NCBI GenBank assembly: GCA_947179485.1
Contig: OX359250.1
Coordinates: 42,974,600-43,038,599, forward strand
DNA length: 64,000 nucleotides
Direction: 5' to 3'
From: Allacma fusca
Lineage: Eukaryota; Arthropoda; Collembola; Symphypleona; Sminthuridae
Positions 13,444-63,858 of the stretch are shown here, piece by piece; position 1 is the first letter of the stretch; the number at the start of each line of letters is the position of its first letter. A program made the position numbers and the translations under genes. A model generated the notes under the pieces. That model was not told where the DNA came from. It did not search any database and saw nothing but the letters and a program-made list of their open reading frames with translations.

Positions 13444-14359
13444 CAGAGCTTCTGCCGGGGACAGGGACGTCCCGTCGGGACACTGGACGGACCGGGACGG
13501 GACGTCCCCGGGGACAAAATAATTGTCCCCATGTCGTATTCGGGACGGGACGGGGACACAAAAAATTGTCCCCATTATATTCGGGACGGGACGGGGACAA
13601 AACAAAATGTCCCCATTATATCGGGGACGGGACGGGGACAAAAAAAATTGTCCCCATTATATCAGGGACGGGACGGGGACAAAACAAATTGTCCCCACTA
13701 TATTCGGGACGGGACATGCTTTTTGGTCGTGTATATAACGGGACGGGACGAGCAAGCACAGCAGAACAAGGATAACGTTTCAGCTTTAATGCTCATGAGT
13801 AAACTATTCTGTGAACACTATTTCACCTTTGTAGAAAATGAGGCTTGTTGCTCAAAAAGTTCAGGAAGAATCTTCTCGATTCTATAAATGCGTTTTTTAT
13901 GTGTTTGATACAAATATTTTTTTACGAAATTTTCCTCATGTTCCGATTTTCGATATGAGAATGTCGACAACTGTTTTCAGTAATTATCGGGACGGTACAG
14001 GAATTTTGTTCACATTCCACGATTTTCGGGACCGGGTACAATATTTTTTTTTAATTTTGGGGACGGGATGGGGACAAGGTTGTTGTCCCCGTGTCCCGAC
14101 TTTCGGGACGGGACCGGGGACGACGTTTTTTAAAAAGTTTGGGGACGGGACGGGGACAAGATTTTTGTCCCCATGTCCCGACTTTCGGGACGGGACCGGG
14201 GACAACGTTTTTATAAACTTTTGGGGACGGGACGGGGACATGGTTTTTGTCCCCGTGTCCCGATTGTCGGGACGGGACTGGGGACAAAGGTTTTTTAAAA
14301 ATATCGGGACGGGACGGGACGGGGACGGGACAAGAATTTTGTCCCCAACAGAAGCACTG
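13444..14359. mobile_element. hAT-like non-autonomous element, 'GGGAC' type (916 bp)
   Basis: Perfect 8-bp duplication CGTTTGAC (13436-13443 and 14360-14367). The terminal inverted repeats are CAGAGCTTCTG... and ...CAGAAGCACTG. Both arms consist of tandem, degenerate GGGACGGGACGGGGAC units spaced by 'AAAATTGTCCCC' words (about 13450-13730 and 13985-14345); the centre is unique and non-coding. The many ORFs here are artefacts of the repeat. It interrupts the LINE ORF2. The 8-bp duplication and CAG start fit the hAT superfamily. Confidence 0.9.
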
Positions 14360-14367
14360 CGTTTGAC

Positions 14368-15437
14368 CAATTACCCTCGGTTCTTTTCGCTTTCCTCAAT
14401 TTTCTTATAGCTCGGTTTACTGCAATTTTTTTCTCTTTACAACTATTATCAAACCATTTTGGGGCTACTGTTTGTCCTTTCATATGCCACCCTTTACAAA
14501 GCATTCCTGATTCTAATGCGGCTTTTGTTATTAAGTTATTCAGGTTCTCAAAGCTGTAATCAGTTCTACTTAGGTCACCTTGCAGTCTTTCTAAGGTATC
14601 TTTGAATAACCTTGCTTTGTCTGTGTTCCAGTGGATTCTATTGCATTCAATTTTTTGATTAAATTTCCCTGAGTACTTATCAAATATAATCTGAACTGGG
14701 AAATGGTCTGATAGTTCTGCCTCAAGTACTTCAAAGTCTAGGATTCTGTTGCATAACGTTGATTTACATATTGCTAGATCTACACAGCTCGCTCCATTTC
14801 CATTGCAGAAGGTTATTTCCCCATCATTGTCAGAGTTTGTTCTTCCATTCAGTATTACAAAATCATTCTCCAAGATTAGGTCATTTAAAATTACACCTCT
14901 TTTGTTAATGCAGTTATCTTTTGTATTTCTAACCTCACGTATATTTAGAGCATTTATGTTTGAACTTAGATTTAATAAACCGCATCTCGCGTTTAGGTCA
15001 CCTATAATTATCACATTCGTATTTACATTTTTTAATTTTTGAAACATTATATCTAATTTGTCATCATACTCGGCTTTAGGGGGTATGTATGAAAAGGTTA
15101 TAAGTAAAGGCTTTTTTTGTTCTACCTTAAGTATACAAAAGTGTATGCCTGTCTCTATTACATTAATTTTAATGTTTGTTTTTGCCCCTATAATAAGTCC
15201 TCCGCTACTTCTTCCCTTAGAGTTAGTTCCATTAATCGTAATTAGGTTATACTTATCTTCGATTTGCTTTAAATTTACCCTGTGCCCTTCCCTCAGCCAA
15301 GTTTCAGACATACAAAAAAGATCAGGATCCTTACCGATTAAAAATTGCATCTTTTCAAAAGAATTTGTCACTAGCCCATTGCAGTTCCAGTAAATAATTT
15401 TACTGACGTCATCAGGTTGTAAGGGTTTGCCATTTCC
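14368..15437 (-). pseudogene. LINE ORF2, N-terminal part: APE endonuclease
   Basis: Apurinic-like endonuclease domain that nicks target DNA. Motifs in order: IIYWNCNGL (the N of NCNG is catalytic), LFCMSETWL (the E of SETW), IIIGDLNARCG (GDLNA) and ELSDHFPVQIIF (SDHFP), each characteristic of the family. The frame has no ATG before the first motif and lies in the same register as ORF1, directly after its TGA stop at 15438-15440, so read-through or reinitiation is likely. It is cut on its 3' side by the hAT-like element at 13444-14359 plus its 8-bp duplication. Confidence 0.9.
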
Positions 15438-16112
15438 TCATTTGGAGGGTTGTCCAGTGTAGTGTTGTTGCCACTCATGTTGCTCTCTTGTAGTCTTCCT
15501 TTCGTTTCTTCTCTGGAATTTTTCTTCAGCCACTCTTGGTGGATCGTCTGGGTTAATAAAGACCTTGATATTCTTCATCCTTAGTTTCTTTCGGGCTTCA
15601 AATACTTTATTCCTGGATGACACTTTTGTAAACTGAATATGTATACTTCTTGGTCGGTCCCCTTTCTGTTTGCCTATTCTCTTCAGTATGTCTATCTCTG
15701 CATTTCTCACCTCGAGGTCATCCACAATAAGTTTTCTTACTTTTTCCTCAAGTTGCTCTGTTGTTTCTCCTGTGTTCTCACTTATTCCCGTTACAATAAT
15801 GTTGCTTCGTCGCATCTCCATCCAGAGTCGGTCGTTTTCTCGTTTCAGGGCTGTGTTCTCCGTCTCCAGCACCTCGCATCTCACATTTACCTTGCTCATC
15901 TGTGTTTGGATTGAGTCAAATTTCATGTTCAGTATGTCCAGTTTTTGCAGAATCTTGTCCGCAATATCTTCTCTAATCTCCCGGCTGCTGCCGTCGTCAG
16001 CTTTTCGTTTCTTGTTCTCCATTTCATTTGTTGTAGCAGGGAATTGCATTAGGGTTTGTGCCCTGTGCTGTGTGGTATATACATTCTCCGGTGATTCTCT
16101 GGGGAAAACCAT
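15438..16112 (-). CDS. LINE ORF1 protein (coiled coil plus RNA-binding domain)
   Basis: An intact frame of 224 residues. Residues about 40-100 form a Leu/Ile heptad coiled coil (ILQKLDILNMKFDSIQTQM...LETENTALKRENDRLWMEM). Residues about 105-185 match the pattern of L1-type ORF1/Transposase_22 RNA-binding domains (RRSNIIVTGI, DILKRIGKQKGDRPRSIHIQF, RNKVFEARKKLRMKNIKVFINPD... read in short pieces). The tail is basic. ORF1 protein binds element RNA and acts as a nucleic-acid chaperone. The stop is a single TGA followed in the same register by ORF2. Confidence 0.85.
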   Translation of the reverse strand: MVFPRESPENVYTTQHRAQTLMQFPATTNEMENKKRKADDGSSREIREDIADKILQKLDILNMKFDSIQTQMSKVNVRCEVLETENTALKRENDRLWMEMRRSNIIVTGISENTGETTEQLEEKVRKLIVDDLEVRNAEIDILKRIGKQKGDRPRSIHIQFTKVSSRNKVFEARKKLRMKNIKVFINPDDPPRVAEEKFQRRNERKTTREQHEWQQHYTGQPSK

Positions 16113-16712
16113 TTTGTTATTAGTCCGTGCTTTTTAGAGTGTGCAGGCTCGGGTCTTTCCTAAAGGTTATATAAGAGTATTCAAGACTTATCTGATACTG
16201 GTGCCTGGCCAGTTACCGAGCGATGCAATGCGTGTTTTCAGCTGTGCATAATGTTGTAACCGCCAGGCTGTTGCCGATGCCTTCCTTAGCTTCTCTTTTC
16301 ACTTCAGACACTTAACTTCTATTATCACTTAACTTATTTGACTGTAGTACTGATAAGAGAGCCCTACTGGTTTTGATGTTTACTGCTTGAAAGTCAGACC
16401 AGAACTTATCAATGCTATATAATGTAATGCTTATGATTTGGAATGAAAAACAGTGTGGACAACTGTATAAGTGGCAGTGCGAGACAAGCTATGATCGATT
16501 ACACATATTCGATACTGATAAGTCTTTTCACCGTGCTATTGTATCTATTGAGAAACAAGTGATAATTGCTAATTAAAGAAGTAAATAATTGTTTGTAATA
16601 CATGCTGAAGTACTTCTTGCATTATTTTGTATAATTGTTGCTGAATATAAGTTCAGCTGGTCCTTCATATTAAAGTGAAAATTAGAGGAGCTAATCGCAG
16701 CCTAACACCTTT

Positions 16713-19091: not shown

Positions 19092-20915
19092 CAGGGATGT
19101 CAACGATTAATAATCACGATTAATGATTAACGATTAATGATTACTAATTATTAATCATCAATCGTTAATTTAGTAAGCTTGGATTTTTTGAAATAATCAT
19201 TAATTGTAATCGTCAATTAACCGTTTTCAAAAATCAATCATCAATTGTAATCATCAATTAACCGTTTTCAAAAATCAATTATCAATTGTAATCATCAATT
19301 AACCGTTTTCAAAAATCAATCATCAATTTTAATCATCAATTAACCGTTTTCAAGAATCAATTATCAATTGTAATTATCAATTAACCGGTTTCAAAAATCA
19401 ATCATCAATTGTAATCATCAATTTACCGTTTTCAATAATCAATCATCAATTGTAATCATTAATTTACCGTTTTCAAAAATCAGTCATCAATTTTAATCAT
19501 CAATTATTAAATTATAAATGATTAATCGTTAATTGTAAATGAAATTCAAAATTTAGCAAGAAGTAATTTGTAATCGGAAGTGTAGATTTAAGAAGAAGTA
19601 ATGTGTAATAATTGTATTCGTAACTGAAACTTTAGTAAAAACTATTTCGTAATTGTAACCTAACCTAACTTCAGTAAAAATTAATTTGTAATTGTAATCG
19701 TAACTGATATTTTAGCAGCAAGTATTTTCAATTGCAATCATCAATCACTTTTTTCAGTAGTCATTAATCTTAATATATAATACGGAATTCGAAATGGGAC
19801 AGTTTTTCAATAATTTGTCTCGCCTGATGATGTTAGACACGTCAAGCCCAAAAACTTGCGCATTATAAACTTTTAAAAAAATAATTTACTTTAAAAAGAC
19901 ACTGGTAACCATATAAAATAATTATTTTTGTTGCTGTATCATATGCAGTTACTACTTACTACAAGTTCGCAATGATCTGATATTTCTTATTTTGTTTAAT
20001 CAAACTAAGTCTAAAAAATTGAAGCTAAGATTTATTTTAAGACTACCAAAATGTAATCTATATCATATGTAAAACGCAGGTGGCGTCTGTCCGTTCTGAA
20101 CGATCATTTTCCTTATCATTAATTATAATAAATAATGTAATCGGCAATTAAATGTTTAAAAAAATAAACAATAATTGTAATCGACAATTAAATGTTAAAA
20201 AAATAAACAATAATTGTAATCGACAATTAAATGTTAAAAAAATAAACAATAATTGTAATCGACAATTAAATGTTAAAAAAATAAACAATAATTGTAATCG
20301 ACAATTAAATGTTAAAAAAATAAACATTAATAATTGTAATCGACAATTAAATGTTAAAAAAATAAACATTAATAATTGTAATCGACAATTAAATATTTTG
20401 TTAAAAGATAATCGTTAATTGCAATCCTCAATTAATTAATTTTCAAAATAACCGTTAATTGTTAATTGCAATCCTCAATTAATTTATTTTCAAAAGTAAT
20501 CGTTAATTGTAATCATCGATTAAAATTAGTTTTAAAGTAATCGTTTGTTGTAATCATCAATGAAAATTATTTTTAAAGTAATCGTTAGTTGTAATCATCA
20601 ATGAAAATTATTTTTAAAGTAATCGTTAATTATAATCATCAATGAAAATTATTTTTAAAGTAATCGTTAATTGTAATCATCAGTGAATAATATTTTTAAA
20701 GTAATCGTTAGTCGTAATCATCAGTGAATAATATTTTTAAAGTAATCGTTAGTTGTAATCATCAGTGAATAATATTTTTAAAGTAATCGTTAGTTGTAAT
20801 CATCAATGAATAATATTTTTAAAGTAATCTCTAGTTTTAATCATCAGTGAATAATATTTTTAAAGTAATCGTTAATCGTAATTGTTATTTAGTAGTTATA
20901 AGCCCATTAATCATT
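19092..20915 (-). mobile_element. Truncated hAT-like element, 'ATTAACGATTA' type, left copy
   Basis: Starts with CAGGGATGTCAACG and matches the reverse complement of the element at 25771-28303 almost base for base through the unique core (about 19780-20140, near 99% by eye). The match stops at about 20915, where unrelated DNA begins, so the far end is missing and no 8-bp duplication is found. It carries three tandem arrays: 41-bp units (19190-19510), 39/42-bp units (20150-20395) and 41-bp units (20520-20880). Non-coding. Confidence 0.85.
20150..20400. repeat. 39/42-bp tandem array in left copy
   Basis: About six units of a 39-42-bp repeat containing AATGTTAAAAAAATAAACAA and TAATTGTAATCGACAATTA. 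Because 39 and 42 are multiples of three, the array yields repetitive ORFs on both strands (13-14-residue units); these are artefacts. The same array with more units occurs inverted at 26940-27330. Confidence 0.9.
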
Positions 20916-21430: not shown

Positions 21431-22416
21431 TAGGGCTCCTCACAACTCAAGTTATCACGTTATTTGAACTTGAAGTTGTACTTGAAATTGAATTTTCAAT
21501 TCAATTTTGGCCTCATAGTTGTATTTGACCAATTGCAAATCAATTTTTTAATTGAAAGTCAATTACCGGAAACCAACTCATAGCTTCATTATTTGAAGTT
21601 GTCAATTTCAAGTTGTAATATTTGTACAAATTGAAGTTGAATTGAAATTGACTTGAAGTTGATTCAAATTGAGTTGAACAATTTAACGTGTTATTAAATA
21701 ATACTACCTAATAGTATCAAAATAAAAAAGTATAATGGGTAAAACTAAGTTTCCCCGAGAAGCGTTTTAGACATCTCAAATGATTTTTGCTTCAAAAACT
21801 CAAAAAAATTGTTTTCAAATTTCAGCTGACATTAAATACCGTAAATAACAAATAGACTCAGTCGCTGAATACATGCTTACATATTTGTCAAAGGATTTTG
21901 TTTGTTTTTAGGTGAATGCTTGAACCATCAACTGAATATCAACTAACTATTAAATCAACTATTTTCCCTTTCCGCACTCATAACGACTATCGTTGATTAA
22001 ACTTAAGAATAATTTTAACGCATTTTTCAATTTTAATAATTTTAGATTGTGTATGAACTAGATTTCAGGTTGCCAGCAGCGTGACCCAGTATCTTTTGTT
22101 CATTAAGACAACCAGTGGATTCCCTGAATTTACTGCAAAGCTTTTCCCAACGCGCATGTTTAATTCGTTCAGAAATTGTCAATCTGTCAACTATTTGTAC
22201 TTCAGCAACTTGAAGTTGAATTGACTATGCTTCTCAAATGAAGAGCTTTATTTGTAAGTTGAATTGAAGTTGAACTTGAATGTTCAACTAATATTTTGTT
22301 TCAAATTGAAGTTGACTTCAATTTACAATTTAATTTTTTTAATAAATTGAAGTTGACTTGAAGTTGTAATTGAAATTGTAAGTTGCAACTACTACTTGAA
22401 GTTGTGAGGAGCCCTA
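21431..22416. mobile_element. hAT-like non-autonomous element, 'TTGAAGTTGA' type (986 bp)
   Basis: Perfect 8-bp duplication CTCTTTAG (21423-21430 and 22417-22424). The terminal inverted repeats TAGGGCTCCTCACAACT are identical over 17 bp. Both arms (about 21450-21680 and 22195-22400) are built of degenerate TTGAAGTTGAATTGAA words; the centre is unique and non-coding. TAG start and 8-bp duplication fit hAT. Confidence 0.92.
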
Positions 22417-25051: not shown

Positions 25052-25889
25052 CAGGAATGAAATATCGGAAAAATAAAAATTCCGATTCCAATAACAATAT
25101 ATGTTTAAATTTAATTTCGATTTAAATTCCGATTCCGATGTATCCAAATAATTAATTTGGAATTCCGATACCAATTAATTCAAATACTTATAAATAATTC
25201 CGATTTCAGTTCCGATTCTATGCACGTAAGCTATAAATTGTTGTTATTTTTGGCATTTTTAATTCATTCGACCACGTCATTTAAACTGTTTACTCGAACA
25301 AACGACATGTTTTGCAACCTCCAGTAGTCGACCTAGGTTATATTTTTAACTTAATCGTAATGTAGAGAAAAGTCTTCCCACGGTAACCTAAGTTACTCGA
25401 ATACTCAAGATTACAAATGTTACTCGCTAGAGAATTTCTGAAAATTGTGAATCATTTTACCACTTGAACAAATTATTTCAATTTTCCCTTTGCGGGCTAT
25501 AGCTGTTCCACAGAATACATTGGAACATGCCTTTCATTTTTTTTCCAAATTTCTATTGTAGTCGTAGTAAACACGAATAAATGATTCTGCCTTTCTTTTC
25601 ATTTTTATTACTACGATAAAGAACTATTTGCGCAACAATCCATGTACAAGTGTAAAGGGTAGTAAAGGTTCTATGTGAAAGATCGTAAAGGGCTCTTTAT
25701 GGCTGTATAATGCAGTGTTAGAAACGGAATCGGAATTCATCGGAATATTATTAAATTCTAATACCAATACCAGGGATGTTAATTTCCAATTTTGTGATTA
25801 CAATTAACGATTAACGATTACTTCGAAAACAAAATGAATTTATAATTACAATTAATGATTAATGGGCTTATAACTACTAAATAACAATT

Positions 25890-26930
25890 ACGATTAACGA
25901 TTACTTTAAAAATATTATTCACTGATGATTAAAACTAGAGATTACTTTAAAAATATTATTCACTGATGATTAAAACTAGAGATTACTTTAAAAATATTAT
26001 TCACTGATGATTACAACTAACGATTACTTTAAAAATATTATTCACTGATGATTACAACTAACGATTACTTTAAAAATATTATTCACTGATGATTACAACT
26101 AACGATTACTTTAAAAATATTATTCACTGATGATTACAATTAACGATTACTTTAAAAATAATTTTCATTGATGATTACAATTAACGATTACTTTAAAAAT
26201 AATTTTCATTGATGATTACAATTAACGATTACTTTAAAAATAATTTTCATTGATGATTACAACTAACGATTACTTTAAAAATATTATTCACTGATGATTA
26301 CAATTAACGATTACTTTAAAAATAATTTTCATTGATGATTACAATTAACGATTACTTTAAAAATAATTTTTATTGATGATTACAACTAACGATTACTTTA
26401 AAAATAATTTTCATTGATGATTACAACTAACGATTACTTTAAAACTAATTTTAATCGATGATTACAATTAACGATTACTTTTGAAAATAAATTAATTGAG
26501 GATTGCAATTAACAATTAACGGTTATTTTGAAAATTAATTAATTGAGGATTGCAATTAACGATTACTTTAAAAATAATTTTCATTGATGATTACAATTAA
26601 CGATTACTTTAAAAATAATTTTCATTGATGATTACAACTAACGATTACTTTAAAAATAATTTTTATTGATGATTACAACTAACGATTACTTTAAAAATAA
26701 TTTTCATTGATGATTACAATTAACGATTACTTTAAAAATAATTTTTATTGATGATTACAACTAACGATTACTTTAAAAATAATTTTCATTGATGATTACA
26801 ACAAACGATTACTTTAAAACTAATTTTAATCGATGATTACAATTAACGATTACTTTTGAAAATAAATTAATTGAGGATTGCAATTAACAATTAACGGTTA
26901 TTTTGAAAATTAATTAATTGAGGATTGCAA
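25890..26930. repeat. 41-bp tandem array (about 25 units)
   Basis: The unit contains GATGATTACAACTAACGATT followed by ACTTTAAAAATAATTTTCATT, with a few higher-order variants (AATTAATTGAGGATTGCAATT). The left copy at 20400-20880 holds only about half as many units. Confidence 0.9.
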
Positions 26931-26939
26931 TTAACGATT

Positions 26940-27330
26940 ATCTTTTAACAAAATATTTAATTGTCGATTACAATTATTAATGTTTATTTTTTTAACATTT
27001 AATTGTCGATTACAATTATTAATGTTTATTTTTTTAACATTTAATTGTCGATTACAATTATTAATGTTTATTTTTTTAACATTTAATTGTCGATTACAAT
27101 TATTAATGTTTATTTTTTTAACATTTAATTGTCGATTACAATTATTAATGTTTATTTTTTTAACATTTAATTGTCGATTACAATTATTAATGTTTATTTT
27201 TTTAACATTTAATTGTCGATTACAATTATTGTTTATTTTTTAACATTTAATTGTCGATTACAATTATTGTTTATTTTTTTAACATTTAATTGTCGATTAC
27301 AATTATTGTTTATTTTTTTAAAGATTTAAT
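26940..27330. repeat. 39/42-bp tandem array (about 9 units)
   Basis: Inverted equivalent of 20150-20400. The unit is TTTAATTGTCGATTACAATT plus ATTAATGTTTATTTTTTTAA. It generates an 87-codon repeated ORF (27-nt and 39/42-nt periodic), which is an artefact. Confidence 0.9.
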
Positions 27331-28678
27331 TGCCGATTACATTATTTATTATAATTAATGATAAGGAAAATGATCGTTCAGAACGGACAGACGTCACCTG
27401 CGTTTTACATATGATATAGATTACATTTTGGTAGTCTTAAAATAAATCTTAGCTTCAATTTTTTAGACTTAGTTTGATTAAACAAAATAAGAAATATCAG
27501 ATCATTGCGAACTTGTAGTAAGTAGTAACTGCATATGATACAGCAACAAAAATAATTATTTTATATGGTTACCAGTGTCTTTTTAAAGTAAATTATTTTT
27601 TTAAAAGTTTATAATGCGCAAGTTTTTGGGCTTGACGTGTCTAACATCATCAGGCGAGACAAATTATTGAAAAACTGTCCCATTTCGAATTCCGTATTAT
27701 ATATTAAGATTAATGACTACTGAAAAAAGTGATTGATGATTGCAATTGAAAATACTTGCTGCTAAAATATCAGTTACGATTACAATTACAAATTAATTTT
27801 TACTGAAGTTAGGTTAGGTTACAATTACGAAATAGTTTTTACTAAAGTTTCAGTTACGAATACAATTATTACACATTACTTCTTCTTAAATCTACACTTC
27901 CGATTACAAATTACTTCTTGCTAAATTTTGAATTTCATTTACAATTAACGATTAATCATTTATAATTTAATAATTGATGATTACAATTGATGATTGATTT
28001 TTGAAACCGGTTAATTGATAATTACAATTGATAATTGATTCTTGAAAACGGTTAATTGATGATTAAAATTGATAATTGATTTTTGAAAACGGTTAATTGA
28101 TGATTACAATTGATAATTGATTTTTGAAAACGGTTAATTGATGATTACAATTGATGATTGATTTTTGAAAACGGTTAATTGACGATTACAATTAATGATT
28201 ATTTCAAAAAATCCAAGCTTACTAAATTAACGATTGATGATTAATAATTAGTAATCATTAATCGTTAATCATTTATCGTGATTATTAATCGTTGACATCC
28301 CTTACCAATACCGCTTACTTTCCAATTCTGATTATAATTCCAATACCTAATTTTACATTATTTCTAATTCTGATTCCGAATTTATTACTTTAAATTTTCG
28401 GATTCTTTTTCGGTTCCGATTCCAATTCCGATTCCAATTTTCAACCCTGAGCACCATACAGTGTTTCAACAGGGACATTTAATAACAATGTTGGTTGGGT
28501 TTAAGTTGATCAAGCGATTAGTTAAATTCCCCGTGTATAGCCAAATATTGAGTTTGAGTTGAGCGAGAACTTTAGTGGGCTAGAGCGTTGTTCCAAAATT
28601 TTTTGATGATGAATTGCCAAACTATCTTTTTGAAACGAATTGTTAGTCTTACAATTAATAGTTCACATGTCTTATATG

Positions 28679-32225: not shown

Positions 32226-32423
32226 AAAATTGCCCCCACTTGCCAATGTTATTTTAAGATATTTTTTCTATTTATTCAATTCTCACACATAAACACAACA
32301 ACATCAGCAATTACAATAACAACGACAGCATATGTGTAATCAATCAGATTTCTTACTTGTAACTAACATATTTATATTTTTAACTATAGACTTAAATATT
32401 TATTGGAATTCAGGAATATCTTT

Positions 32424-42400: not shown

Positions 42401-42621
42401 TTCCTTCCGTAATATGACAAGATTCTTACCCTCTCCAGAATAATGCGATTATTATGCATCTACCATGTAAATGTTTAGAGATGATCATGTTAAGTAATTG
42501 ACAAGTTATTCAATTAAAACAATTCTGAGATCTGTGTGATATTTTGTTAATTTTATCGAACATATTTTATTCAAGAATGACATTCATCATGGAAAATGTG
42601 CTTGTCATGGAAGTGGGAAAA

Positions 42622-44121: not shown

Positions 44122-44157
44122 GATACTTCCACCGATAACCTATGAATGACTAACTCG

Positions 44158-45094: not shown

Positions 45095-45180
45095 TAGTTA
45101 AGTGGCTTTATGGTAATGACGTCACCTACTCACGTTCAGATTACTTTAATTGACGCTGCTGTTAACACCGACACTACAAG

Positions 45181-45522: not shown

Positions 45523-45524
45523 CT

Positions 45525-46355: not shown

Positions 46356-46367
46356 TTTTAATATGAT

Positions 46368-46892: not shown

Positions 46893-46900
46893 AGTTGTAC

Positions 46901-48274
46901 TTACAAAACGTTATTGAAATCTTTAAAGAAAGCGATTTTGTAACGATCAATATGAAGAATTGCGGGAAATTCCAAGTAGCAGACACAGGTTAGTTCTTTT
47001 GTGGTTGGAGAGTTGAATTTTAATTCCAGCTTTAAGTTCCCATGCTTGGGCGGGACAAAACCTTCCTTGACTTGGGCAATATTATACACGTATAGGGCAA
47101 AGCTTGACTTAAACTGCTCAAATTTTATATCCAATCCAACATCCTCACTCTGTATATCCAAACCCTTGAATAAATTGTCGTAAGCTTCCACGTATAGGTC
47201 CCTGGCGTAATCCAGTTCTAATGGAGTGTTGACAATTTCCCCGTTTGCAGTTAAATTGATATACTTAAGATCATGGTTATGAAACACAAAGGGATTTGTC
47301 TTATGCTCTCCAATAAACGATTTGCTGTCCACCAAACCAATGATGACACGATAAGGGATGATACCCGATAATAAATTTTCGTTTGTAATTTGATGCACTC
47401 CAGGTGAGATTGAGAATTGACGCACCTCGACACGTCTCATCGGCATCGATACATGTTTCCCCTTTTCCAACTCTCGTACGTGTTCCAATGCCAAAGATGG
47501 CATAAGAGTTACTTTCTCAATCAATAGAATTGCCTCTTGAATTTCAATTTTATATTTCACGTCAGTATTTGTAAACAGGCAAAATTCATCTGGGGATCTT
47601 GTAAAAACGAAACGTATGTCAACACCTGGTTAAAGATAACTTGTCTGTGAACATATATCCATAAACGGACGTCCTATAAGTTCGAAAACTTTACTATTTA
47701 GACACTTCTTGTATCTTTTGGTATAACCGTTATCTTTAGTCGTGTCTATAATGTCTGGATCATTCTCTCGAGTAAACATTGCACATGCGAGCTGCGATTT
47801 CTTGTACTCCTTCCCATAGCCCAATATTGTCTCCAAATAACTCTTGTATGGATACAAGTTGCTCTGAGGAGTGATTAAAACCTCATTCAAGTAGCAAGAT
47901 GCTTGCGAAAATAAACTGTGCCGAAAATTATTTACCGGTGCCACTATTTCGTCATTTTTTAATACTGTGTTAGAGGGCTCGAGAATCTTACACTTTAACT
48001 TAAGCTTAGTCGAACGTAGGTCTACATATTGTGTATCATTGGACTTGACATAAAATTGTATCGGAGCAAGCCTATCTTGAATTGTTGTCGCCGGAAAAAC
48101 TGTTTGAATTTGAGTGCCCAATCTTGTAACGTCATATCCTGGATCTGAGAATAAAGACGTCTCGTCTCGCACGTAAGTGTACGGAGAATTATTATTATGT
48201 TTACTGTTTACCGATCCCATCTTGCTAATGGAAGATTGTGGGATAGTCAATAGATTTTTTAGACCTGCCACCAC
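46901..48274 (-). pseudogene. Polinton A major capsid protein (double jelly-roll)
   Basis: The N-terminal part reads FSDPGYDVTRLGTQIQTVFP...IQFYVKSNDTQYVDLRSTKLKL, the typical start of Polinton major capsid proteins, followed by FELIGRPFMDIC. The C-terminal part contains MRRVEVRQFSISPGVHQIT, PYRVIIGLVDSKSFIG and YLEFPAILHIDRY. It would build the icosahedral shell. Broken in one or two places. Confidence 0.82.
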
Positions 48275-48720
48275 GCTTTCGACGCTTTACGACAGAATCC
48301 CTCCTTTTTTGTCTTTGAGTCTCGCTTCTTTTTTGCCTTCCTTTTTGTTTTGTCAGCACGTTTCCGTTTTCGGCTAACCTTCCGCTCCTTACGTCGTCCT
48401 GATCCACTCTGGTTAAAATAATCCCGACCCATAGCTTTTAGTGACTGTACCGAATTTATCTTCAACGCATCCTTAAATCTCGCCCATTTCTAACATCAGC
48501 TACTGTATTTTGTATTGCGCTTAGTGCGTGTGGAAGTACATATTTTTGTGCAAATGGGAGAATCTTTCTTGCAAGCGCGCCAAATATTCCACCGATTCCA
48601 GCACCCCTTTGTCTCCTTGCTCCCGCAAAATAGTACTGTCAATTAGGTACCATTGCACCTCCAATTTGACGAGGCAGGCGTCGATAAAATAGGTCAAAGT
48701 CAGCATTACAATTAAACGGT
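48259..48720 (-). CDS. Basic core-like ORFs between capsid genes
   Basis: Minus-strand frames here encode a short Lys/Arg-rich protein (GRDYFNQSGSGRRKERK... KKKRDSKTKK; 48259-48465), then in the upstream direction a small, more hydrophobic frame (48521-48706). Highly basic small proteins at this place in Polintons are thought to condense DNA. Evidence is composition and position only; the upstream part may be broken. Confidence 0.4.
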
Positions 48721-48727
48721 GTAGTAT

Positions 48728-49720
48728 TCATTTTAAAGTGCGCTTTTCTCGAAACTTTAACGTCACTGAAACTGAAGCAAAGTCAAAATTCACGGGTTCA
48801 CCTGTCTCTGTGAGTATCCAAATGTGAATAATGTCAAAATCTGATACGCACAAGTTTAAAAAGTGAGGGGGTGCGAAAGCATTGTGAGTAATTTCGCCGT
48901 ATTTTCCCTTATATGGTATAATTCGTAGGCATGGAGCTTGCACATCCGCCAGGTATTGAGGTTGAATGATATTACAAAACAAAAAGATTTTCGTGTTTCC
49001 CGCGTTTATAAATACAGGCTGAGTTCCCTTAATTATCATTGGTGCAGTATCTTTTCTGTGGTGAGAGATTGATGCATCAACCTTCTCCCACATTTCTTCG
49101 GGAACAATTGCTTTTTCATGTCTTGCCTCAGAAATGTACTCCATTGGTATATCAACACTAAAGTCTTGGGCTTTGTGACCCGTTCCAAATGATAGTGTAT
49201 AGTAAGTGTCACGCTGATCTAAACCTATAGGCAGCACATTACTATCCATTGCAGGACTATATACCGATTTTGAAAATTCTTCACTAATCATTCCCGTTTT
49301 AAAATCATCAATTCCTAATATTGCGCTTAACTTGGAACTAAAACGTATTTTGTTCACTGTTTTGGATGTTTGTAAAACTTCACAACTAAATACATGACCG
49401 ACAGTAGTTATTTTATTGATTGGACATATTTTTGGCAGCATTTCTAATATATCGGACAAATTACAGACATCCTTTGTTGACAAAAAATCAAACTCTATAA
49501 AATGGGCCTCCCCACTAATTTTGTCGTACCATAAATATTCAATGCTCCCAAGTCTTTCATTCTCCTTAATTATTACATGGCCATAAATGTACGAACAGTC
49601 TACAAGCGCAGCTTCCCAACCATCAGAAGGTAATCTTATAACTCCACTTAACTTATTTTTGAAATTCCCAACCGTATTCTCAGGGAAAATGTTTAAACAC
49701 GCATTGGACTGAAGAGACAC
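48728..49720 (-). CDS. Polinton A putative minor capsid (penton-like) protein
   Basis: An intact frame of 330 codons on the capsid strand. Features: ENTVGNFKNKLSGVIRLP and WEAALVDCSYIYGH near the N terminus, KIRFSSKLSAILGID centrally, and INAGNTKIFLFCNIIQPQYL with a LRIIPYKGKYGEI/HFLNLCVSDFDIIHIWI block near the C terminus. Length, beta-rich look and position next to the major capsid gene suit the single jelly-roll minor capsid protein of Polintons. Family assignment is by position and pattern. Confidence 0.65.
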   Translation of the reverse strand: MSLQSNACLNIFPENTVGNFKNKLSGVIRLPSDGWEAALVDCSYIYGHVIIKENERLGSIEYLWYDKISGEAHFIEFDFLSTKDVCNLSDILEMLPKICPINKITTVGHVFSCEVLQTSKTVNKIRFSSKLSAILGIDDFKTGMISEEFSKSVYSPAMDSNVLPIGLDQRDTYYTLSFGTGHKAQDFSVDIPMEYISEARHEKAIVPEEMWEKVDASISHHRKDTAPMIIKGTQPVFINAGNTKIFLFCNIIQPQYLADVQAPCLRIIPYKGKYGEITHNAFAPPHFLNLCVSDFDIIHIWILTETGEPVNFDFASVSVTLKFREKRTLK

Positions 49721-49967
49721 AAAAAAACCGACATTTTGTCAGTTTTAAAACCAATTCTAGACTAAAATCACAAAATTTTGTTTTCATCATTCATTTATTT
49801 TACCCTTTCAAATTTTCCCTTATGCATTTGAATACTTACTTTCCTCCAACACTCTACTGTACCTCACCAACGGGTTAGCCTAATTTTATTTCTTATAAAT
49901 ATTCAATAATTACCTACTGATACATAGCATTGTTTTCTGATGTTCCAACAATCGTATGGAACTTCCT

Positions 49968-50128
49968 CCGTATGCTATGCCTGCACTCGTAAGGCCTCCC
50001 CTCTGTATGATACACTCCTAAGGTTTCCCATCTGTATGATACACTAGCAAGGTCTCCCCTCTGTATGATACACTAGCAAGGTCTCCCCTCTGTATGATAC
50101 ACTTGTAAGGTCTCCCCTCTGTATGATT
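49968..50128. repeat. 29-bp minisatellite
   Basis: About five units of GTATGATACACTAGCAAGG plus TCTCCCCTCT just inside the right terminal repeat of Polinton A. No equivalent at the left end. Confidence 0.9.
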
Positions 50129-50187
50129 TCAACCTGCGTACGTCTGTTTTCTGAAGAGCAGAAAAGTACAAGATTCTGCCCTGTTTG

Positions 50188-50796
50188 TATCATTTGTGCA
50201 TGCATTTTTTCTTCAGTATGTCCGATTGTTTACGACGGCGAAGGAATTTTTTTGAGTATTTTTCTATGTGCGAATGGTACAGTGAGGGAATTCTATCCAT
50301 GTCCGAATTTAACATGCGCAACTCATGCCCATTGAATTAAAATGGGCAGCTTATTCATTAACGTGGAAAGTACATACGCATTTAATTAACGTGGGCATCT
50401 ACTGCCATTTAATTAACACGGTATGTACATACACCCTTATTTAAAATGGGCATCTACTGCCATTTAATTAACACGGGAGGTACATACCCACTTATTTAAA
50501 ATGGACATCTACTACCATTTAATTAACACGAGATGTACATACATACTCATTTAACACGAGCAGCTGCTGCGTATTTAGTTACATGAGCAACTCGAGATCA
50601 TTTACTTAGGTATACATGTGATGCGAACACGAGTAAACCATATCACTGACGTAGGTTCTCAAATTAACATGAGTGTCTACTGCCATATAATTAACGTGGG
50701 TAATTTGTTAACATGGGTGTCTACTGCCATTTGTTTAACCCGTGCAAAATTAACATGGGGAATTTTAACATGGGTACCTCCACTATAACCACTACT
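50188..50796 (-). repeat. Polinton A right terminal inverted repeat
   Basis: Inverse of 32424-33128, ending CCACTATAACCACTACT. It carries fewer of the 55-bp internal units than the left arm. Similarity is roughly 90-95% outside the tandem part by eye. Confidence 0.92.
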
Positions 50797-50802
50797 ATCT
50801 TT

Positions 50803-53156: not shown

Positions 53157-54387
53157 CAGTGATGGGTAACCGAAAATTTGGGTTTACGTTAAGTACTCAA
53201 AAGTTAATGACAGTCTAAATTCGGTTTTCGTTTTCGTTATTGGTTTTTTAGGTATTCGGTTATGGTTATAAACGGTTAGCAGTTGGATTCAATAGCGTTA
53301 ACCGGTTAATAACGGTTAGTATTAACAACCGTGAATACGGTTAATGAAAAGTATTTTTCTGGATTTAAATTAATACAAAACTTCTCTAACAAGTAACCTT
53401 CGCTCCATGCCCGCTCGGGTTCGGAATGAAATTTTGTGGGAGCTTAGGTACCTGACCTAAGGGCCCAGCGAAACCAAAAGTTTGTGCCATCTCACCCTGG
53501 TTTGCGCGGGAAATCGCGAAAAAGTTTTAAAATCGAATTCGTGGTCAAAGAAGCCAAAGAAATAATTGTGACCAACATTGACCAATATGAGGCCAAAAAC
53601 CTAATTGTGACCAATATTGACCAATCTAAGGTCAAGAAGGTAGGTAGAACCACGTATGACGAATCTTCTTCGACGTTCTTTTAACAGAGCATCGACTTTC
53701 GAAAATGAAAATTTCTTATGGGATTTAACATTGTAAAATTCATGTTGGACATGCTCACGAACTAGATTTTAAAACTTCTGCCTAAAACTTCTTCTCGAAC
53801 TTGGGCCGGGTACCTAAGCTCAAACAAAATTTCATTCCGATCCCGAGTGGGCATGGGGCGAGGGTTACTTGTAAGCATGCTTAATTGTTATACATACTTA
53901 GCACTAGCATTGCTTTTATTAATTCCCGAAATGTCTTTGTAACGTTTGTTTTCAGCAAACAATAATGACTTAATGCAAATAGTTTCAGAATAAATACATT
54001 GTCGGTAACCAGTAAAAATGGTATACATCCATTTTCAACCAAACGTAAAATGGCAACTTGTGACTTAAAATTAATCGCCCGGAATTTTTAAAAAGTAAAA
54101 TTAAATCTAACATGGAAATATGGAACACTTTCTATATGTTTGCAAATGTATACTTATGTATCATTATCAGAAATACAATTAGATCATTTATTAAAGATTT
54201 TCAATAACGGATAATAACGTTTTTGTGATTCGGTTTATGTTATTTGCTGTCCAGGGGTTTCGGTTTTCGTTAAGTTTTTGTTAGTCAAGGGGAATATGTT
54301 AAACGTTATTTATAATTCACCGTTACTAGGATTTTATCGATAATAACGTTATTCATTAACGTTAACCAATAACGTTACCCATCACTG
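53157..54387. mobile_element. hAT-like element, 'AACGGTTA' type (1231 bp)
   Basis: Perfect 8-bp duplication ATCTAAAC (53149-53156 and 54388-54395). The terminal inverted repeats are CAGTGATGGGTAAC(C/G). The arms consist of degenerate GGTTA/AACGG/TAACG words (53165-53370 and 54195-54380). It lies in a coding exon of the DUF4806-like gene; with the duplication it adds 1239 bases, a multiple of three, but brings stops. A smaller MITE sits inside it. Confidence 0.93.
53390..53871. mobile_element. Nested MITE with TAA duplication (482 bp)
   Basis: The terminal inverted repeats of about 60 bp begin CAAGTAACCTTCGCTCCATG at 53390 and end GGTTACTTG at 53871. The flanks are TAA (53387-53389 and 53872-53874). 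A 3-bp TWA duplication suggests PIF/Harbinger, though TA-plus-A (Tc1/mariner) cannot be excluded. Higher GC than its host element. A 66-codon ORF inside is probably noise. Confidence 0.75.
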
Positions 54388-55940: not shown

Positions 55941-56520
55941 CAGGGTTGGCAAGTGGCAAGAATTGGCCTGGTCAATATTGGGTAAAATCCGGTACTAACC
56001 GGCCTGGTCGGGTTGTATAGATTGGTATAAAATGGCCATAATTAATAGTATCCAAATAAATCCACTGTCCAATAAAAACCGGTTTTAACCAAAAAGTACC
56101 ACCGGCTTGGTTAATATTACACATGCATGGACAGCAATGAATAAAACCCACAATGGCTAAAGGAATCCTGCAGAGAACTACCGATCTGCCACAATATTTA
56201 AATTGGGCTGCTAGGTAACTATCGAAAATCGTGTTTATATAGGGAGTAAGTAGGTGCGGGCGTAAAAGAAGCGGAGTTTTAACTTTTTGGACCACGCCGC
56301 GTGATCGGACATAATTGTTACCAATTATTACCACAAGCCAAAAGATGCCGGTAAAATCCAATATCAACCACTGGCCTGGACATTAGATTATTTAACTGGA
56401 TAGTATTGGCGTTTATTATATTTTAGCCAATAAAATCCACATCAAATAAAAACCGGTTGTTACCATTTCTTGCCACTGGATTGGCCTTAATTGATAAAAG
56501 CCGGTTTTTTTCCAACCCTG
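55941..56520. mobile_element. hAT-like element, 'CCGGTTTTA' type (580 bp)
   Basis: Perfect 8-bp duplication CTCATCCA (55933-55940 and 56521-56528). The ends are CAGGGTTGGCAAG and TTCCAACCCTG. Both arms consist of degenerate AAACCGG/TTGGCC/GGTTTTAACC words. A minus-strand ORF at 55972-56367 crosses the motif repeat and is not taken as a gene. Confidence 0.92.
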
Positions 56521-57923: not shown

Positions 57924-60068
57924 TTAATCATAATAATTGCCCTTCATAAGCATATTCAATTTCCCTGAGTCCTTGTGCGTGTACCACATGGGTCCAAAAT
58001 AACGACGTTGTGGGTTGCTCCAGCATATTAGAGTTGTTAGAATCAAAGCACATAGGAAACAAACCGAAGTGTGCACTGCTAACAGCATTTTTCGCCTGGG
58101 TGCGCCAGGAAGATCTTGTTGAACGTGCGGACGAATGAGTGGGATCGGAACAGCCATGACGTAAGTTCTGGTTTTGTTTACTGCTTTATCCGGTCTCTTC
58201 ATAAAGACCATAAGGATGACATTTATAACCACATCTACAATCAACCAGATAACCACAATCAAGGCGTTAAATTCAAAGGTGAATCCAGACACTTGAATGT
58301 CATTTCTGCCGGAGGGTGACCCAGGGACGTAGAAAGATGTTAGAAGACATAATAACCAAAGAACTCGGGCTACTGTCGCAACCAGGAAGTGTGCAAATAT
58401 TGTCATTTGACGTATTTTCTTTTTGAAGGCTCGAAATGGACTTGGAAATAGAGCGAGCAAAAAGGCGAGTAAAGAAATGTAGCCCAGAATCCAGTGTACG
58501 TACCCCAGAGGGTGTCTCGCAAATCCGAAGAATAAGCGACCAATAAACGCAGATAGCCAACCGCCGAACAGACCTACAAATGCGGTTAAGGCAGTGCTTA
58601 TGTGTATACCATGCCATACGTGGACGTTTACGAATCGCATATTCATGAGAGTCTCTTTGTAGTAACGGGATGTCAAGGTACCAAGTGGGATAACTAGCAT
58701 AGTTGTCATAACCATTGCCATTCCGTGTGTGGTTCGAAGGCCCCAAATTATTTTGCCAATTTCACTGTTGGCAGAAATTCCTTTTGTCCTGGTCAAAGAT
58801 GGGCAACTGGTTTTCCTCGCCTGAAACCTTACCTATACAATGTAATCTCGATTGTCCTTCCTAATACCCTTCCTAAACCGGACTTTTTCTGGTTTCCTTT
58901 TTCCTAAAAATGGGCATATAATTACCCTTCCTATTTCCTTGTCAGATTATTAAATTGCCTAGTAGGGCCTAAAATGTCTAGTTCAGTCTGAATTGCCTTT
59001 GTTCAGCCTTAGTTGGTTGTGTATGCCTTTGCCGGTTTGGTCAAAATTGTATTTTCTTTACGAATAGCGCTGAGAAACAATATGCATTAACATAAGCGGG
59101 TAAATATGATAATTGTCATCATTTAAAATGTATATTGTTAGACGAACACATGATAAGTTCCAAGTTTGGATTTATTTTCTGGAAGATATATTTTAACCTT
59201 AGCAGCATTCAGAATATTAATGTACTAAAAATAAACCCTGTTCACATCACACCATGAAATCTACGGAAACACCGAATCTAGTCGTCTAACTATTAGTGGG
59301 GTCCATATGGGTGGAATTTCTTCAGTTTGTTTTTTACTGTCGTTTATTCAAAGTTATACGGTCCAATACAAATAACTAGCAGAAATCATACAAACCAGTT
59401 TCATCGCTTGCCGCTGGTTGGCATCAAATATGTCTTCCCGGTAGTCCTTCCTAGGATCCTTCCAATTCCCTCACCCTTCCTATGAACTTGCCTATTATTT
59501 TACATATTCTCAGCCTTCCTATTCTATTTCCTAGTTTTTACATAAATTCTACAACTTTCCTAGTTCCTTTCCTAAAAACCTATCCGTTTTGCTTTCCTTC
59601 CTTCCTAGTTGCCTATTAACAAGGCCTAGTTTCAGGCGAGGTGCCCATCTTTGGTCCTGGTGTTATTTCTGGCTGCCTCGCAACCGCCGCAAGTGCCGCC
59701 AGCAGGAAATTGTGGTACATGTGGTACATACTCAGGCCCAACACGGTGGTGAGTTTCGGCGCATCGGAGCCTGTTATTCGGTCCGCTGCTCCAGTGACCA
59801 TGTATGGTTTGAATGCACCGTCCTACAAATCTCTTATAATCGGTACCCACTGACTTCGACTGACATTCGGAGTTTTTAAATGCTGGTTGTCCTTCATAGC
59901 CAACCAAATACGTGTATCCGTAGGCCGTGACCCAGGTATTGTTAGGGAGGCTTGGTCCTAAAGCAATAACTTCGATTGGCGCATCTCTCGGTGGTTCGGG
60001 GTCATAAGATCCGTAGGTAGACCTCTTCACATAAAGTATATTAAAATCGGCCGTAATCATATTCTTAC
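57924..60068 (-). CDS. DOMON / cytochrome b561 membrane protein gene, exon split by a hAT-like element
   Basis: Minus-strand host gene. The lumenal part shows a DOMON-like pattern (GKNMITADFNILYVK, then SYDPEPPRDAPIEV). The C-terminal part (58785 down to 57924, about 287 residues) is a cytochrome b561 domain with five or six membrane helices and candidate haem His residues in RTTHGMAMV, VHVWHGIHI, HPLGYVHWILGY and FAHFLVATV. Such proteins move electrons across membranes (ferric-chelate reductase-like). The coding frame reads from 59662 into 58785 in register once the 860-bp hAT-like element and one 8-bp copy are ignored, so the insertion is inside coding sequence. An acceptor AG lies at 60069-60070. 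Earlier exons lie further right, one possibly ending near 60124. Confidence 0.8.
58794..59653. mobile_element. hAT-like element, 'CCTTCCTA' type, inside a host coding exon (860 bp)
   Basis: Perfect 8-bp duplication GTCCTGGT (58786-58793 and 59654-59661). The terminal inverted repeats are CAAAGATGGGCA(A/C)C. The arms are made of degenerate CCTTCCTA/TTTCCTA/CCTAGTT words (58840-58990 and 59430-59630); the centre is unique. It interrupts the DOMON/b561 gene. Confidence 0.93.
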
Positions 60069-60649: not shown

Positions 60650-61782
60650 CAGGGCTGCGTTCAAGTCAAGTTATTTTAGACAACTTGACTTGAACTTGAA
60701 AAAATTGTCTAAACGAGGTATCCGCACTTGCACTTGATTAATCAAGTTTCTCGAGCAACTTGAGTATTCAAGTACACTTGATATAAATTCATTTAATATA
60801 TCTTGAACTTGATCATAACTTGACGTTCAAGTTGGACACATAACTTGACTTGAACGTGAACTTGAACTTGATTATTGAAGTATTTTTTCGTAAATGAATA
60901 AACAATACTAAAAATTTGGTCCACAATTATTATGGTTAGGTCGTAATTAGGCTAAACTAAACGGCATGCGGAAGATATTCTTTACTTTATATTGCTAAAA
61001 CGTTTAACATACTTGATCGAATAACTAAACATTGTAATCTAATTTCCTAATTTCCATTATTAAGAGACTAGCAATCATATTATTGGCCTGTTATTAGTGT
61101 CGCACTCAACTGGTGAGTGCAACCAGCAGTTATATTCATAAATATTTGTCGTTAATTATGCTCAACAGCTTAGCAAATATTGATTTAGAAGATTGGTGTT
61201 GTTCATCTGCGCCATCATGTTTAATAGCAGCAAAAAATATTCTTACATGGAATAATAAATTGGTCTTATACTTCTTAGCTTCAGAACAGGTGTAGTGAAC
61301 AATCACATCATTTTTATAATGGAACAAGAACCCCGAGTATCAAGGACATCCTTATAAAGCAATTAGTCGGAAATTTTAATTATTCAATTCAAAGTATAGA
61401 AACATTGCACAAGAATTATTCTCGACCACTGGACATCAGGCGACTTTAACGTCGATGGAATAAAAACAAACACAAAGATGTCATTATAATGATAATTGAC
61501 TCCTAATATAATTTTTGTAGTAACATGCGATGATGCCACTATTTAGGCAATGCTTACATTGCTTTTCAGTGACAAAAACACAAGTTATACCCAAGTTTTA
61601 TTGAAGTACTTCCATTCAGTGTACTTGAACTTGACTTGATTATGCAATCAAGTAATAAATTATTAACTTGAACTTGATTGAACGTGAACTTGAAAATTCA
61701 AGTTTAAAATTGCCTACACTTGACTTGAACTTGATACGCACTTGAACTTTTCAAGTTATACTTGAACTTGAACGCAGCTCTG
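60650..61782. mobile_element. hAT-like element, 'ACTTGAACTTGA' type (1.1 kb)
   Basis: The ends are CAGGGCTGCGTTCAAGT (60650) and ACTTGAACGCAGCTCTG (to 61782), an inverted repeat with one mismatch. Both arms (60660-60890 and 61590-61770) are dense in TTGAACTTGA/TCAAGT words; the centre is unique. The flanking 8-bp sequences do not match (ATGGAGAG versus GCTCAGAC), so the duplication is lost or one end has been replaced. A second copy of the terminal word starts at 60594. Confidence 0.75.
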
Positions 61783-62241: not shown

Positions 62242-62250
62242 CTGTCACAG

Positions 62251-62862
62251 TCAAACATGGGCCTTTGTATAACCGCAGCCTACATCCTGCCCAGATTCAA
62301 AAATCATCGGCGGCCCCACCTCATAGCTTATTAGCAGAGCTTGTACAATTAAATCATCCCCCATTTACGGCATCCAATAGCGCTTAGCCTACCCATAATG
62401 GTGTATAGGAAAGGCATTCAAGCGAACCCTTGCCTAGAAGGCAGTCCCTCGCCCTCAATCTTTCCTACACATAAGCCTGTATTCGTACCCTTCATATATA
62501 TACATGATAAGCATAATACCTTTATTTGTCCATTTGTTAATCCATCTTCAATGGATGTGCAAACTGCAAACGTAAAACTTGCATTTTAATACCGGCGTGC
62601 AGAGCAAGCTGTAGATCCGTTAGTATGCGTGCGCCATATATGCTAGCCAATCTATATTCCGTCTAGGCAGTTTAGTTTCTGTTTGGCCTAGCCTACTCTA
62701 AAGCCCATAATGTTCCATTATTTGGCAACTTCCCTATATCTTCCCTGTACGCCCATCACTTTTTGGAGCCCATCCTAGACGCTAGCCTAAATTTTAACTC
62801 CATTGTAAGCCAGCCTAGCATTTGTGCCTAGATTCCATCCTAGATCTAGGCTGGGGGCCCAT
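62251..62862. mobile_element. Inverted-repeat element, 'CCTAG' type (612 bp)
   Basis: Flanked by a 9-bp direct repeat CTGTCACAG (62242-62250 and 62863-62871; 8 bp if the ends are shifted by one). The ends carry ATGGGCC / GGGCCCAT. The right arm is dense in GCCTAG/CTAGGC words; the left arm has GCCC/CCTA words. Non-coding; same general design as the hAT-like set. Confidence 0.75.
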
Positions 62863-62871
62863 CTGTCACAG

Positions 62872-63050
62872 TACCATAAAGTTGCGTATCAGTGAGTTTC
62901 GACATATTATATATTAGGGAGCGGGCACAAATGATGTCATACAAAATAGAGACTTTTTATGACTCACTAAGAAATCATTCACTGTCATATCCAGTAATGA
63001 CTGATTGTATATGACATCATTCGTATGTACCAACGTAAGACGAAGTTGGC
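62872..63050. other. Short unique spacer
   Basis: No gene. Contains repeated ATGACATCAT/GTCATA words (62930-63025) that read as a small imperfect inverted repeat. Confidence 0.35.
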
Positions 63051-63058
63051 GTTCTCTG

Positions 63059-63858
63059 CAAGGATGGGAATCGGAATCGGTATCGGAATTATATTCGAAA
63101 ATTTGAGGATTTTAATTCATATTGGAATTCCAAATAATCCCCAGGAAGTATTTTAATTCAAAATCGCATTCAAAAAATTTTTTGGAATCGGAATTGGTAT
63201 TCAAATATTTTTTAATGAATTCCGATTAAAATAAAGTATTGTTTTCAATAGTATATTTCATCAAATGTGCATACTCAAATATAAATTGTCACAATTTTTT
63301 ACTTGCAGCATAGAGTTAATCAAAGAGCATTGGCGAACGTTTTCTTCATCCGAAATTAACGTGCTTCCGCATTATACGTAAAATAGTCGACTTATTAGCA
63401 CTTGTCAGAGGCTTTTAACGGTTGTGCTCAAAACTATTGTTTGTCCTACAGGTTAATTACTCAAGTAATTTAAATCGTTGACACTAAAATTTTTATAGGT
63501 AACTAAAAATGGGCCAAAGAAAATTAGTAACGTTGGAGTTCAAATATCAGTTTACCGTGTTTTTTCCCCTAAATTTATACTTAATGACCTGCGGGGGAAA
63601 CTAGCTTCCCAAAACATTGATGATATCATGTTTTTAAGGTTGAACGTTTTCCGTAATTAATTCTTTGTATTTTCAGTATACTAGAAGTATTCAAATAAAT
63701 ATTCAAATCGGAATTCATAACGAACGAATACTTGAGGATATTTATATCCGTATTAGAATTCATATTTTTCAGTATTGCTATAGGTATTTTAAATCGTTCT
63801 TCGCCTTGAATATTTTAATTCGAATTAGAATTCATATTTTTCCGATTTCCCATCCTTG
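63059..63858. mobile_element. hAT-like element, 'CGGAAT' type with CAAGGATGGG ends (800 bp)
   Basis: Perfect 8-bp duplication GTTCTCTG (63051-63058 and 63859-63866). The terminal inverted repeats are CAAGGATGGGAA(A)TCGG. The arms are rich in GGAATCGGAAT/GAATTC words; the centre is unique and non-coding. Distinct ends but the same motif word as the element at 25052. Confidence 0.92.

Follow-up and report, generated by a model that had tools for sequence, protein, structure and literature searches.

The 64,000-nucleotide stretch of the genome of the globular springtail Allacma fusca considered here (contig OX359250.1, positions 42,974,600 to 43,038,599; hereafter the window) harbors ten insertions, E1 to E10 (Table 1), whose outer parts, or arms, are filled with short repeated words. 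By their 8-bp target-site duplications (TSDs) and short terminal inverted repeats (TIRs) of the C/TA(G/A) type, the window insertions are DNA transposons of the hAT superfamily. Judging from sequence, the arms most probably represent arrays of putative binding sites for the BED domains of the transposase, which would change together as sets and evolve jointly with the domain that recognizes them.

Enrichment was estimated for the commonest hexamer in the outer 250 bp of each element, TIR excluded, against 200 dinucleotide shuffles (p values are uncorrected). Altogether 24 elements were tested: ten from the window, seven autonomous ones possessing both a transposase and a perfect duplication (L010, L011, L015, L016, L017, L021, and L025), and seven bystander elements situated in the same loci, while L018, a near-copy of L017, was left out. 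Word-rich arms were found in 23 of the 24 (p ≤0.015), including all seven autonomous elements, and 22 surpassed every shuffle; element middles were enriched in only four (E1, E4, N12, and N18). Within the window, eight of ten elements exceeded all 200 shuffles E10 gave p 0.015 (computed on 62251–62868), and E8, whose word CGGAAT is degenerate, gave p 0.18. Autonomous elements exploit CTCTAC/TAGAGG (L011), CCTTCA (L015 and L016), AAGGCA/CTTGCC (L017), CCCTCA/CACTCA (L021), and GAACTC (L025), and bystanders use CGGAAC (at L009), ACATGA (at L022), and ACTTGA (at L018, as in E9). A single genome-wide word was accordingly rejected, since words differ from family to family.

A 41-bp register was first sighted as 41-bp units reported by Tandem Repeats Finder in several window families. 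When arm autocorrelation was compared with that of shuffled 12-bp chunks, which preserve local words, lag 41 came out on top both for 29 families (z 9.8) and for the 27 remaining without E1 and E4 (z 6.4). For 19 families from outside the window, a few of which are related to window families through word or end (N18 to E9; A17 to E7), it likewise led among lags 20–120 (z 5.3; p 0.002, the floor of 500 shuffles), and the lag triplet 40–42 ranks 1–4 of 39 in 14 of the 29 families. Families with unrelated words have a common 41-bp lag. The lags also form a finer comb, whose period comes to 5.35 bp for the families from outside the window (p 0.0133 when all periods are considered; 0.0033 within the band 5.15–5.45) and to 5.65–5.75 bp for sets containing window elements; owing to this difference the term "half helical turn" is approximate. 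We read this as words placed at intervals of approximately half a turn, the favored distance being about four helical turns (41 bp).

Bent DNA in general shows helical periodicity. The spacing might thus stem from packing into nucleosomes or from an intrinsic bend of A/T-rich DNA instead of from the transposase, and in the layer 300–537 bp inward (10 elements) lag 40 indeed stands on top (z 2.7; p over all lags 0.29), reaching z 2.0 in element centres. Such an origin is nevertheless somewhat unlikely, given that lag 41 itself falls to z 1.4 in the centres (14 elements; p 0.08) and to z 1.0 in the 300–537 bp layer (p 0.18), and that the second strongest lag-41 signal, after that of E4, belongs to E1, which is GC-richer.

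The link between words and transposases was assessed in 17 families having a BED or BED-like N-terminus together with a word array (L010, L011, L015, L016, L017, L021, L022, L025, L026, L029, L031, L032, L033, L038, L039, L041, and L044). They come from 36 loci, L009–L044, and 3′ stretches L045–L051; L018, L023, L036, L042, and L043 were excluded as further copies, and L009, L012–L014, L019, L020, L024, L027, L028, L030, L034, L035, L037, and L040 as not assignable. For L039, the array was taken by choice from its 3′ stretch L049 (GACTGA), which agrees with the BED relatives of L039. Distances between BED domains and between words correlate with r 0.535, 0.616, and 0.601 for k 4, 5, and 6 (p 0.0001, the lowest value that 9,999 permutations allow, in Mantel tests, which model no tree); without L029, L039, and L026, r is 0.550, 0.619, and 0.561 (p 0.0001 each). 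The dimerization domain, compared in 14 families, also correlates with the word (r 0.48, 0.51, and 0.47). However, the partial correlation of BED given the dimerization domain persists in these 14 families (0.35, 0.49, and 0.49; p 0.0024, 0.0002, and 0.0002), whereas that of the dimerization domain given BED does not (0.17, 0.12, and 0.07; p 0.09, 0.15, and 0.21). Without L031, whose dimerization domain is partial, the values are 0.42, 0.57, and 0.57 for BED and 0.13, 0.07, and 0.04 for the dimerization domain. Since only the BED partial correlation survives, the word appears to go with the DNA-binding part of the transposase, a statement supported statistically within the limits of Mantel tests. 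The suggestion that element words and transposase specificities have diverged together is in this way supported statistically for BED, by the covariation in 17 families and the partial test in 14.

The finest case is a pair of families, L031 and L041, with a common end CACTGCTGCCCTAGTCTA and similar BED helices (STGGVSNLIRHL and SNGGTSNLIRHL). The 5′ arm of L031 (226 bp) contains GAAT 17 times and GACT once, whereas that of L041 (226 bp) contains GACT 20 times and GAAT twice, so that a one-base switch is repeated through the whole 5′ array. The 3′ arm of L041 has 15 GACT and three GAAT, and L041 with its 3′ stretch L046 is flanked by the perfect duplication GCATTAAT; no 3′ arm could be located for L031 within the 2.2 kb fetched (L045). 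Another word, GACTGA, occurs in L033, in its copies L036 and L042, and in L038, their BED helices being related, while the 2.2-kb 5′ stretches of L033 and L038 give no nucleotide match at E 1e-10. Both ends of L033 (L033 and L047) carry GACTGA, but without a matching duplication.

Similarity of words and of BED domains could in principle be inherited in parallel, decaying together from common ancestors with no functional coupling. Transposases that are related should also have related ends, the dimerization domain does correlate with the word (r 0.47–0.51), and the tree is left out of Mantel tests; but the partial correlation favors BED only, arms free of constraint should be barely recognizable at 40–60% BED similarity, yet their words persist, and L031 differs from L041 by one base repeated through the array. 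Descent as the only cause is therefore unlikely. That the arms are neutral low-complexity expansions, in which slippage and snap-back copying homogenize any short word with no binding role, is improbable and as a sole account was rejected, for although arms are tandem-like, vary in length among copies (often by 41 bp in E1), and in E1, E4, and A15 resemble plain tandem repeats, words stand at both ends of autonomous elements and track BED, not the dimerization domain, GACTGA is found in both L033 and L038 despite their dissimilar 5′ stretches, and the 41-bp register is common to families with unrelated words.

Persistence of words in copies was followed across the genome (393 Mb in 91 contigs; the published assembly comprises 392.8 megabases with six chromosomal pseudomolecules, PMC10427803). 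In this genome, a transposase frame of L024 is 100% identical, across 98% of the query, to a protein annotated from Allacma fusca. The pattern used for each family consisted of its end and first word with 1–3 mismatches allowed, and the reversed pattern served as a control. Matches numbered 886 for E1, 298 for E2, 118 for E5, 487 for E6, 133 for E7, 269 for E8, and 1,811 for E9, against 0 in the control for each of the seven families. In copies chosen by a pattern that itself contains the first words, E2 kept its words at both ends in three of three, and E8 kept the left end in three of three, two of them aligning only partly and all having, beyond the searched pattern, only 1–3 additional exact words within 250 bp of that end; the absence of words from most family members was thus not observed in these copies. 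Among the E1 matches listed, 29 facing end pairs were recognized, 28 of them 425–972 bp long and one of 2,596 bp; where the 28 pairs below 1 kb differ in length, the difference is most often 41 bp (13 cases; the next, 1 bp, has 10). The pair of 2,596 bp (G000:C1:37766218-37768813) leaves room for an autonomous copy or a nested one. Three E8 ends at G000:C10:63115134, 63118492, and 63121850 are spaced by 3,358 bp, and four E6 ends from G000:C8:60880157 onwards by 7,717–7,718 bp; these regularly spaced ends are larger tandem duplications carrying the elements.

Autonomous partners were sought by comparing the listed matches with 150 transposase places, scored out of 860 candidates, of which 20 had been fetched first as loci. 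Three E7 matches, among 100 listed of 133, fall at such places (L022, L052, and L053). L022 is an autonomous element of 3.8 kb with CCTTCCTA arms and a duplication matching at 7/8, and L052, 98.8% identical to it, has the same arms and the perfect TSD CTCTTGTG. Because nearly all of E7 matches the two end regions of L022 (1–487 at 79% and 509–855 at 91%), E7 looks like an internal-deletion relative of L022/L052 with the same word. For E5, two matches fit among 100 listed of 118: L055, an element of 2.84 kb with a transposase, AATAAC/ATAACG arms, and a duplication of 6/8, which E5 ends match at 84–97%, and L054, which shows 94% identity with L055 along 2.8 kb, carries an extra E5-like piece, and has no matching duplication. 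A further E5 match at C1:54876969 lies near a transposase but is oriented away from it. The middle of E5 has no match in L055, and E5 is for this reason credited with shared ends and word only. The hAT dimerization domain (PF05699) is present in L022, L052, and L053 as well as in L054 and L055, and a BED-like pattern was recognized by eye from translations in the partners of both families. Autonomous relatives thus do share ends and words with E7 and E5, and the anticipated autonomous match per family was obtained for these two; none was seen by eye for E1 or E2 among 100 matches listed of 886 and 298, nor for E6, E8, and E9 among 100 listed of 487, 269, and 1,811, the lists of E1 and E9 covering only part of contig C1.

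As for the domain itself, PF02892 (BED) exceeded the cut-off at 35 genome places and also in P0121 and the L026 exon. A Pfam scan of ten reading frames of autonomous elements gave nothing above cut-off, the BED-like exons lying elsewhere; among L009–L028 a BED regular expression matched only L024, other BED-like exons being recognized by eye in translations, and a sequence search of PDB with the L041 BED domain produced no match. Locus L016 also contains, at 1926–9515, a hAT-like element with CTGGTC/GGACCA arms and the perfect duplication GCTCCGTC, into which another autonomous hAT (2362–6567) with CCTTCA arms is nested. In L009, a weaker pair of ends (418–7199; 9/11 positions) with the perfect duplication TCTGGCGG and CTAGTC words on the left brackets a transposase and was used in no count.

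The interpretation of arms as BED-site arrays has to be confronted with several observations that weigh against it. In the window, the word of E8 is weak (p 0.18), its CGGAAT being degenerate, and E9 has no target-site duplication despite good ends and arms. Word and BED distances point to the same closest family in only eight of 17 cases, and for six of the 17 (L026, L029, L031, L038, L039, and L044) arms come from one side only. Three of seven 3′ stretches show the 5′-arm word (L046, L047, and L048), while L045 (of L031), L050, and L051 do not; L039 has ACCCGA on its 5′ side and GACTGA on its 3′ side, its copy L043 carrying AAGTTC. In the roughly 2 kb upstream of BED loci L034, L035, and L037 no clear array is seen, 12 of the 20 fetched transposase loci gave no confident bracketing element (one, L022, was resolved later), and a scan showed no word-rich window in L024 and L028 (nor in L017, though its arms are word-rich by the hexamer test). 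The register, too, is uneven: in the outside set without A15, A16o, L041, and L031, lag 41 declines to z 3.2 (p 0.002, or 0.03 when all lags are considered) and is surpassed by lag 47 (z 3.6), and E6 and A11 are devoid of the lag-41 signal (triplet ranks 35 and 38).

With arms taken as BED-site arrays, the following scheme may be proposed. The outer 200–300 bp of each family would constitute an array of sites of 5–12 bp, most likely gripped by the N-terminal BED domains of its own transposase. The multimeric enzyme would present several BED domains simultaneously, and many weak sites in helix register could therefore provide tight and family-specific capture of ends. Arrays would add and drop units (often of 41 bp in E1), by which a new word could spread through an entire array; a BED variant preferring this word, arising afterward or, in the reverse order, beforehand, would then split off a private transposition system, and the non-autonomous elements of the window retain arms without the gene. 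Ends, duplications, words, the autonomous partners of E5 and E7, the BED–word covariation, and the common 41-bp register were observed directly, whereas we infer the role of words as BED sites, the ring geometry behind the register, and the order of events. A bolder generalization, which we hold plausible but still somewhat doubtful, is that dozens of mutually private hAT systems in one genome spell a BED recognition code, with the word set by the helix, single-base switches running array-wide, and one common scaffold (a half-turn comb and about 41 bp, or four helical turns), the latter because the ring would hold BED domains at a fixed spacing whatever the word.

Transposase of maize Ac is known to bind short subterminal repeats such as AAACGG. 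As in the maize Ac/Ds system (PMC3260210), non-autonomous elements have the same ends and subterminal repeats as an autonomous partner, but Ac/Ds is one family and the springtail has many. Transposase of Hermes, a housefly hAT, has an N-terminal BED zinc finger and forms a ring of four dimers whose BED domains grip subterminal AAG(T/C) sites, 17 at the left end and 14 at the right, and cleavage is impaired when the first two sites are displaced by one base (PMC10368747). The springtail elements resemble Hermes in combining a transposase with a BED or BED-like N-terminus and short subterminal sites; unlike the four-base, scattered sites of Hermes, springtail words are mostly longer, fill the arms, vary by family, and follow a common 41-bp register. 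By analogy, the springtail arms fit an enlarged mechanism of Hermes type, with many sites per arm in a common spacing, homogenized as units are gained and lost, and able to drift, as a set, along with BED. In the mosquito element Herves, repeats of CGATTCAT type are required and stand at both ends, as words do here, and a fourfold direct repeat suffices for binding; its authors mention that hAT sites vary between elements, although the text available concerns one element with few motif copies and no covariation across families, as opposed to the many families here (PMC3143072). CGGBP-like domesticated proteins, combining hAT BED with the Hermes DNA-binding domain, recognize diverse motifs on protein-binding microarrays, as springtail words are diverse, and four motifs of hAT proteins have matches in the subterminal regions of the elements themselves; the accessible account covers domesticated and a few hAT proteins from many species and lacks arrays, spacing, and a within-genome radiation (PMC8097297).

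The original prediction called the pattern apparently undescribed. This is too strong for the principle, because subterminal repeats of hAT elements and diverse hAT/BED motifs are already published (PMC10368747, PMC3143072, and PMC8097297), but no open-access paper among those listed, by title and beginning of abstract, was found to describe such a radiation, covariation, or register, subscription papers and preprints lying mostly outside the search. The kind is thus known, and the scale, the statistical link between BED and word, and the common register look new. It is an open question how a transposase can acquire a new specificity without the element being killed, and this genome offers for it many BED–word pairs, including neighbors one base apart per site, in which the code may be directly read and tested. 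It is predicted that BED domains have a fixed geometry in hAT transpososomes and that orthogonal hAT systems can be drawn from this genome, the sequences of both parts being at hand.

Turning to the window insertions, perfect 8-bp duplications were confirmed at all eight places (E1 to E8) for which they had been claimed, start coordinates being exact to the base and 8–10 of 10 TIR positions matching. Six pairs combining CA/TA ends, an 8-bp duplication, and a TIR of at least 9/10 are present in the window against means of 0.05 (maximum 1) in Markov and 0.38 (maximum 2) in 50-bp block shuffles, 60 each, and a chance origin of duplications was rejected. At TIR of at least 8/10 there are 12 pairs, namely, these six, E3, E4, and four inside ATTAACG arrays, with chance means of 0.5 and 1.55 and maxima of 4 and 6 (Markov and block shuffles, respectively); because chance pairs occur at the 8/10 level, assignment of E3 and E4 leans on their arms as well. 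Offset controls proved uninformative because tandem arrays fill them. From the two insertions suggested to have weaker ends, that at 62251 (E10) gained a perfect duplication GTCACAGT once its ends were reset to 62252 and 62864, its TIR remaining weak, while that at 60650 (E9) stays without one. A truncated second copy of the E4 family, E4b, absent from the original list of insertions, is 88.6% identical to E4 over 1809 columns, with its terminus CAGGGATGTCAACG intact at 19092.

Table 1. hAT insertions of the window, in positions of the 64,000-nucleotide stretch
Element	Position	Strand	Arm words	TSD	TIR	Remarks
E1	13444..14359	+	GGGAC/CGGGAC	CGTTTGAC		non-autonomous hAT; 41- and 82-bp units
E4b	19092..20915	-				truncated second E4-family copy; far boundary approximate
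E2	21431..22416	+	TTGAAGTTGA	CTCTTTAG	10/10	
E3	25052..28449	+	CGGAAT	AGCACCAT	8/10	host of nested E4
E4	25771..28303	+	ATTAACGATTA arrays	ACCAATAC	8/10	inside E3; 41- and 42-bp units
E5	53157..54387	+	AACGGTTA/ATAACG	ATCTAAAC	10/10	
E6	55941..56520	+	CCGGTTTTA/AACCGG	CTCATCCA	9/10	
E7	58794..59653	+	CCTTCCTA	GTCCTGGT	10/10	
E9	60650..61782	+	TTGAACTTGA	none	CAGGGCTGCGTTCAAG/CAGAGCTGCGTTCAAG	
E10	62252..62864	+	CCTAG/AGCCTA	GTCACAGT, perfect (62244-62251, 62865-62872)	weak	
E8	63059..63858	+	CGGAAT/GAATTC, degenerate	GTTCTCTG	10/10	

Apart from hAT elements, the region 32423–50797 is bounded by inverted ends about 0.7 kb long, which are 80% alike and both contain a 55-bp tandem unit; a frame between them is about 35% identical to insect and mollusc proteins, some of them named DNA-directed DNA polymerase, which suggests a Polinton/Maverick-like element; a Pfam scan of seven frames from this stretch and its left flank gave no match. 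Scans with Rfam and for tRNA also returned no match. On the minus strand, a remnant of a long interspersed nuclear element (LINE) has its reverse transcriptase (PF00078) at 11240–13270 and its endonuclease at 14298–15437, E1 lying between the two. At 57924–58832, a frame of 302 amino acids has a weak match to a chemoreceptor family (E 0.009, below the cut-off), and its upstream end enters E7.

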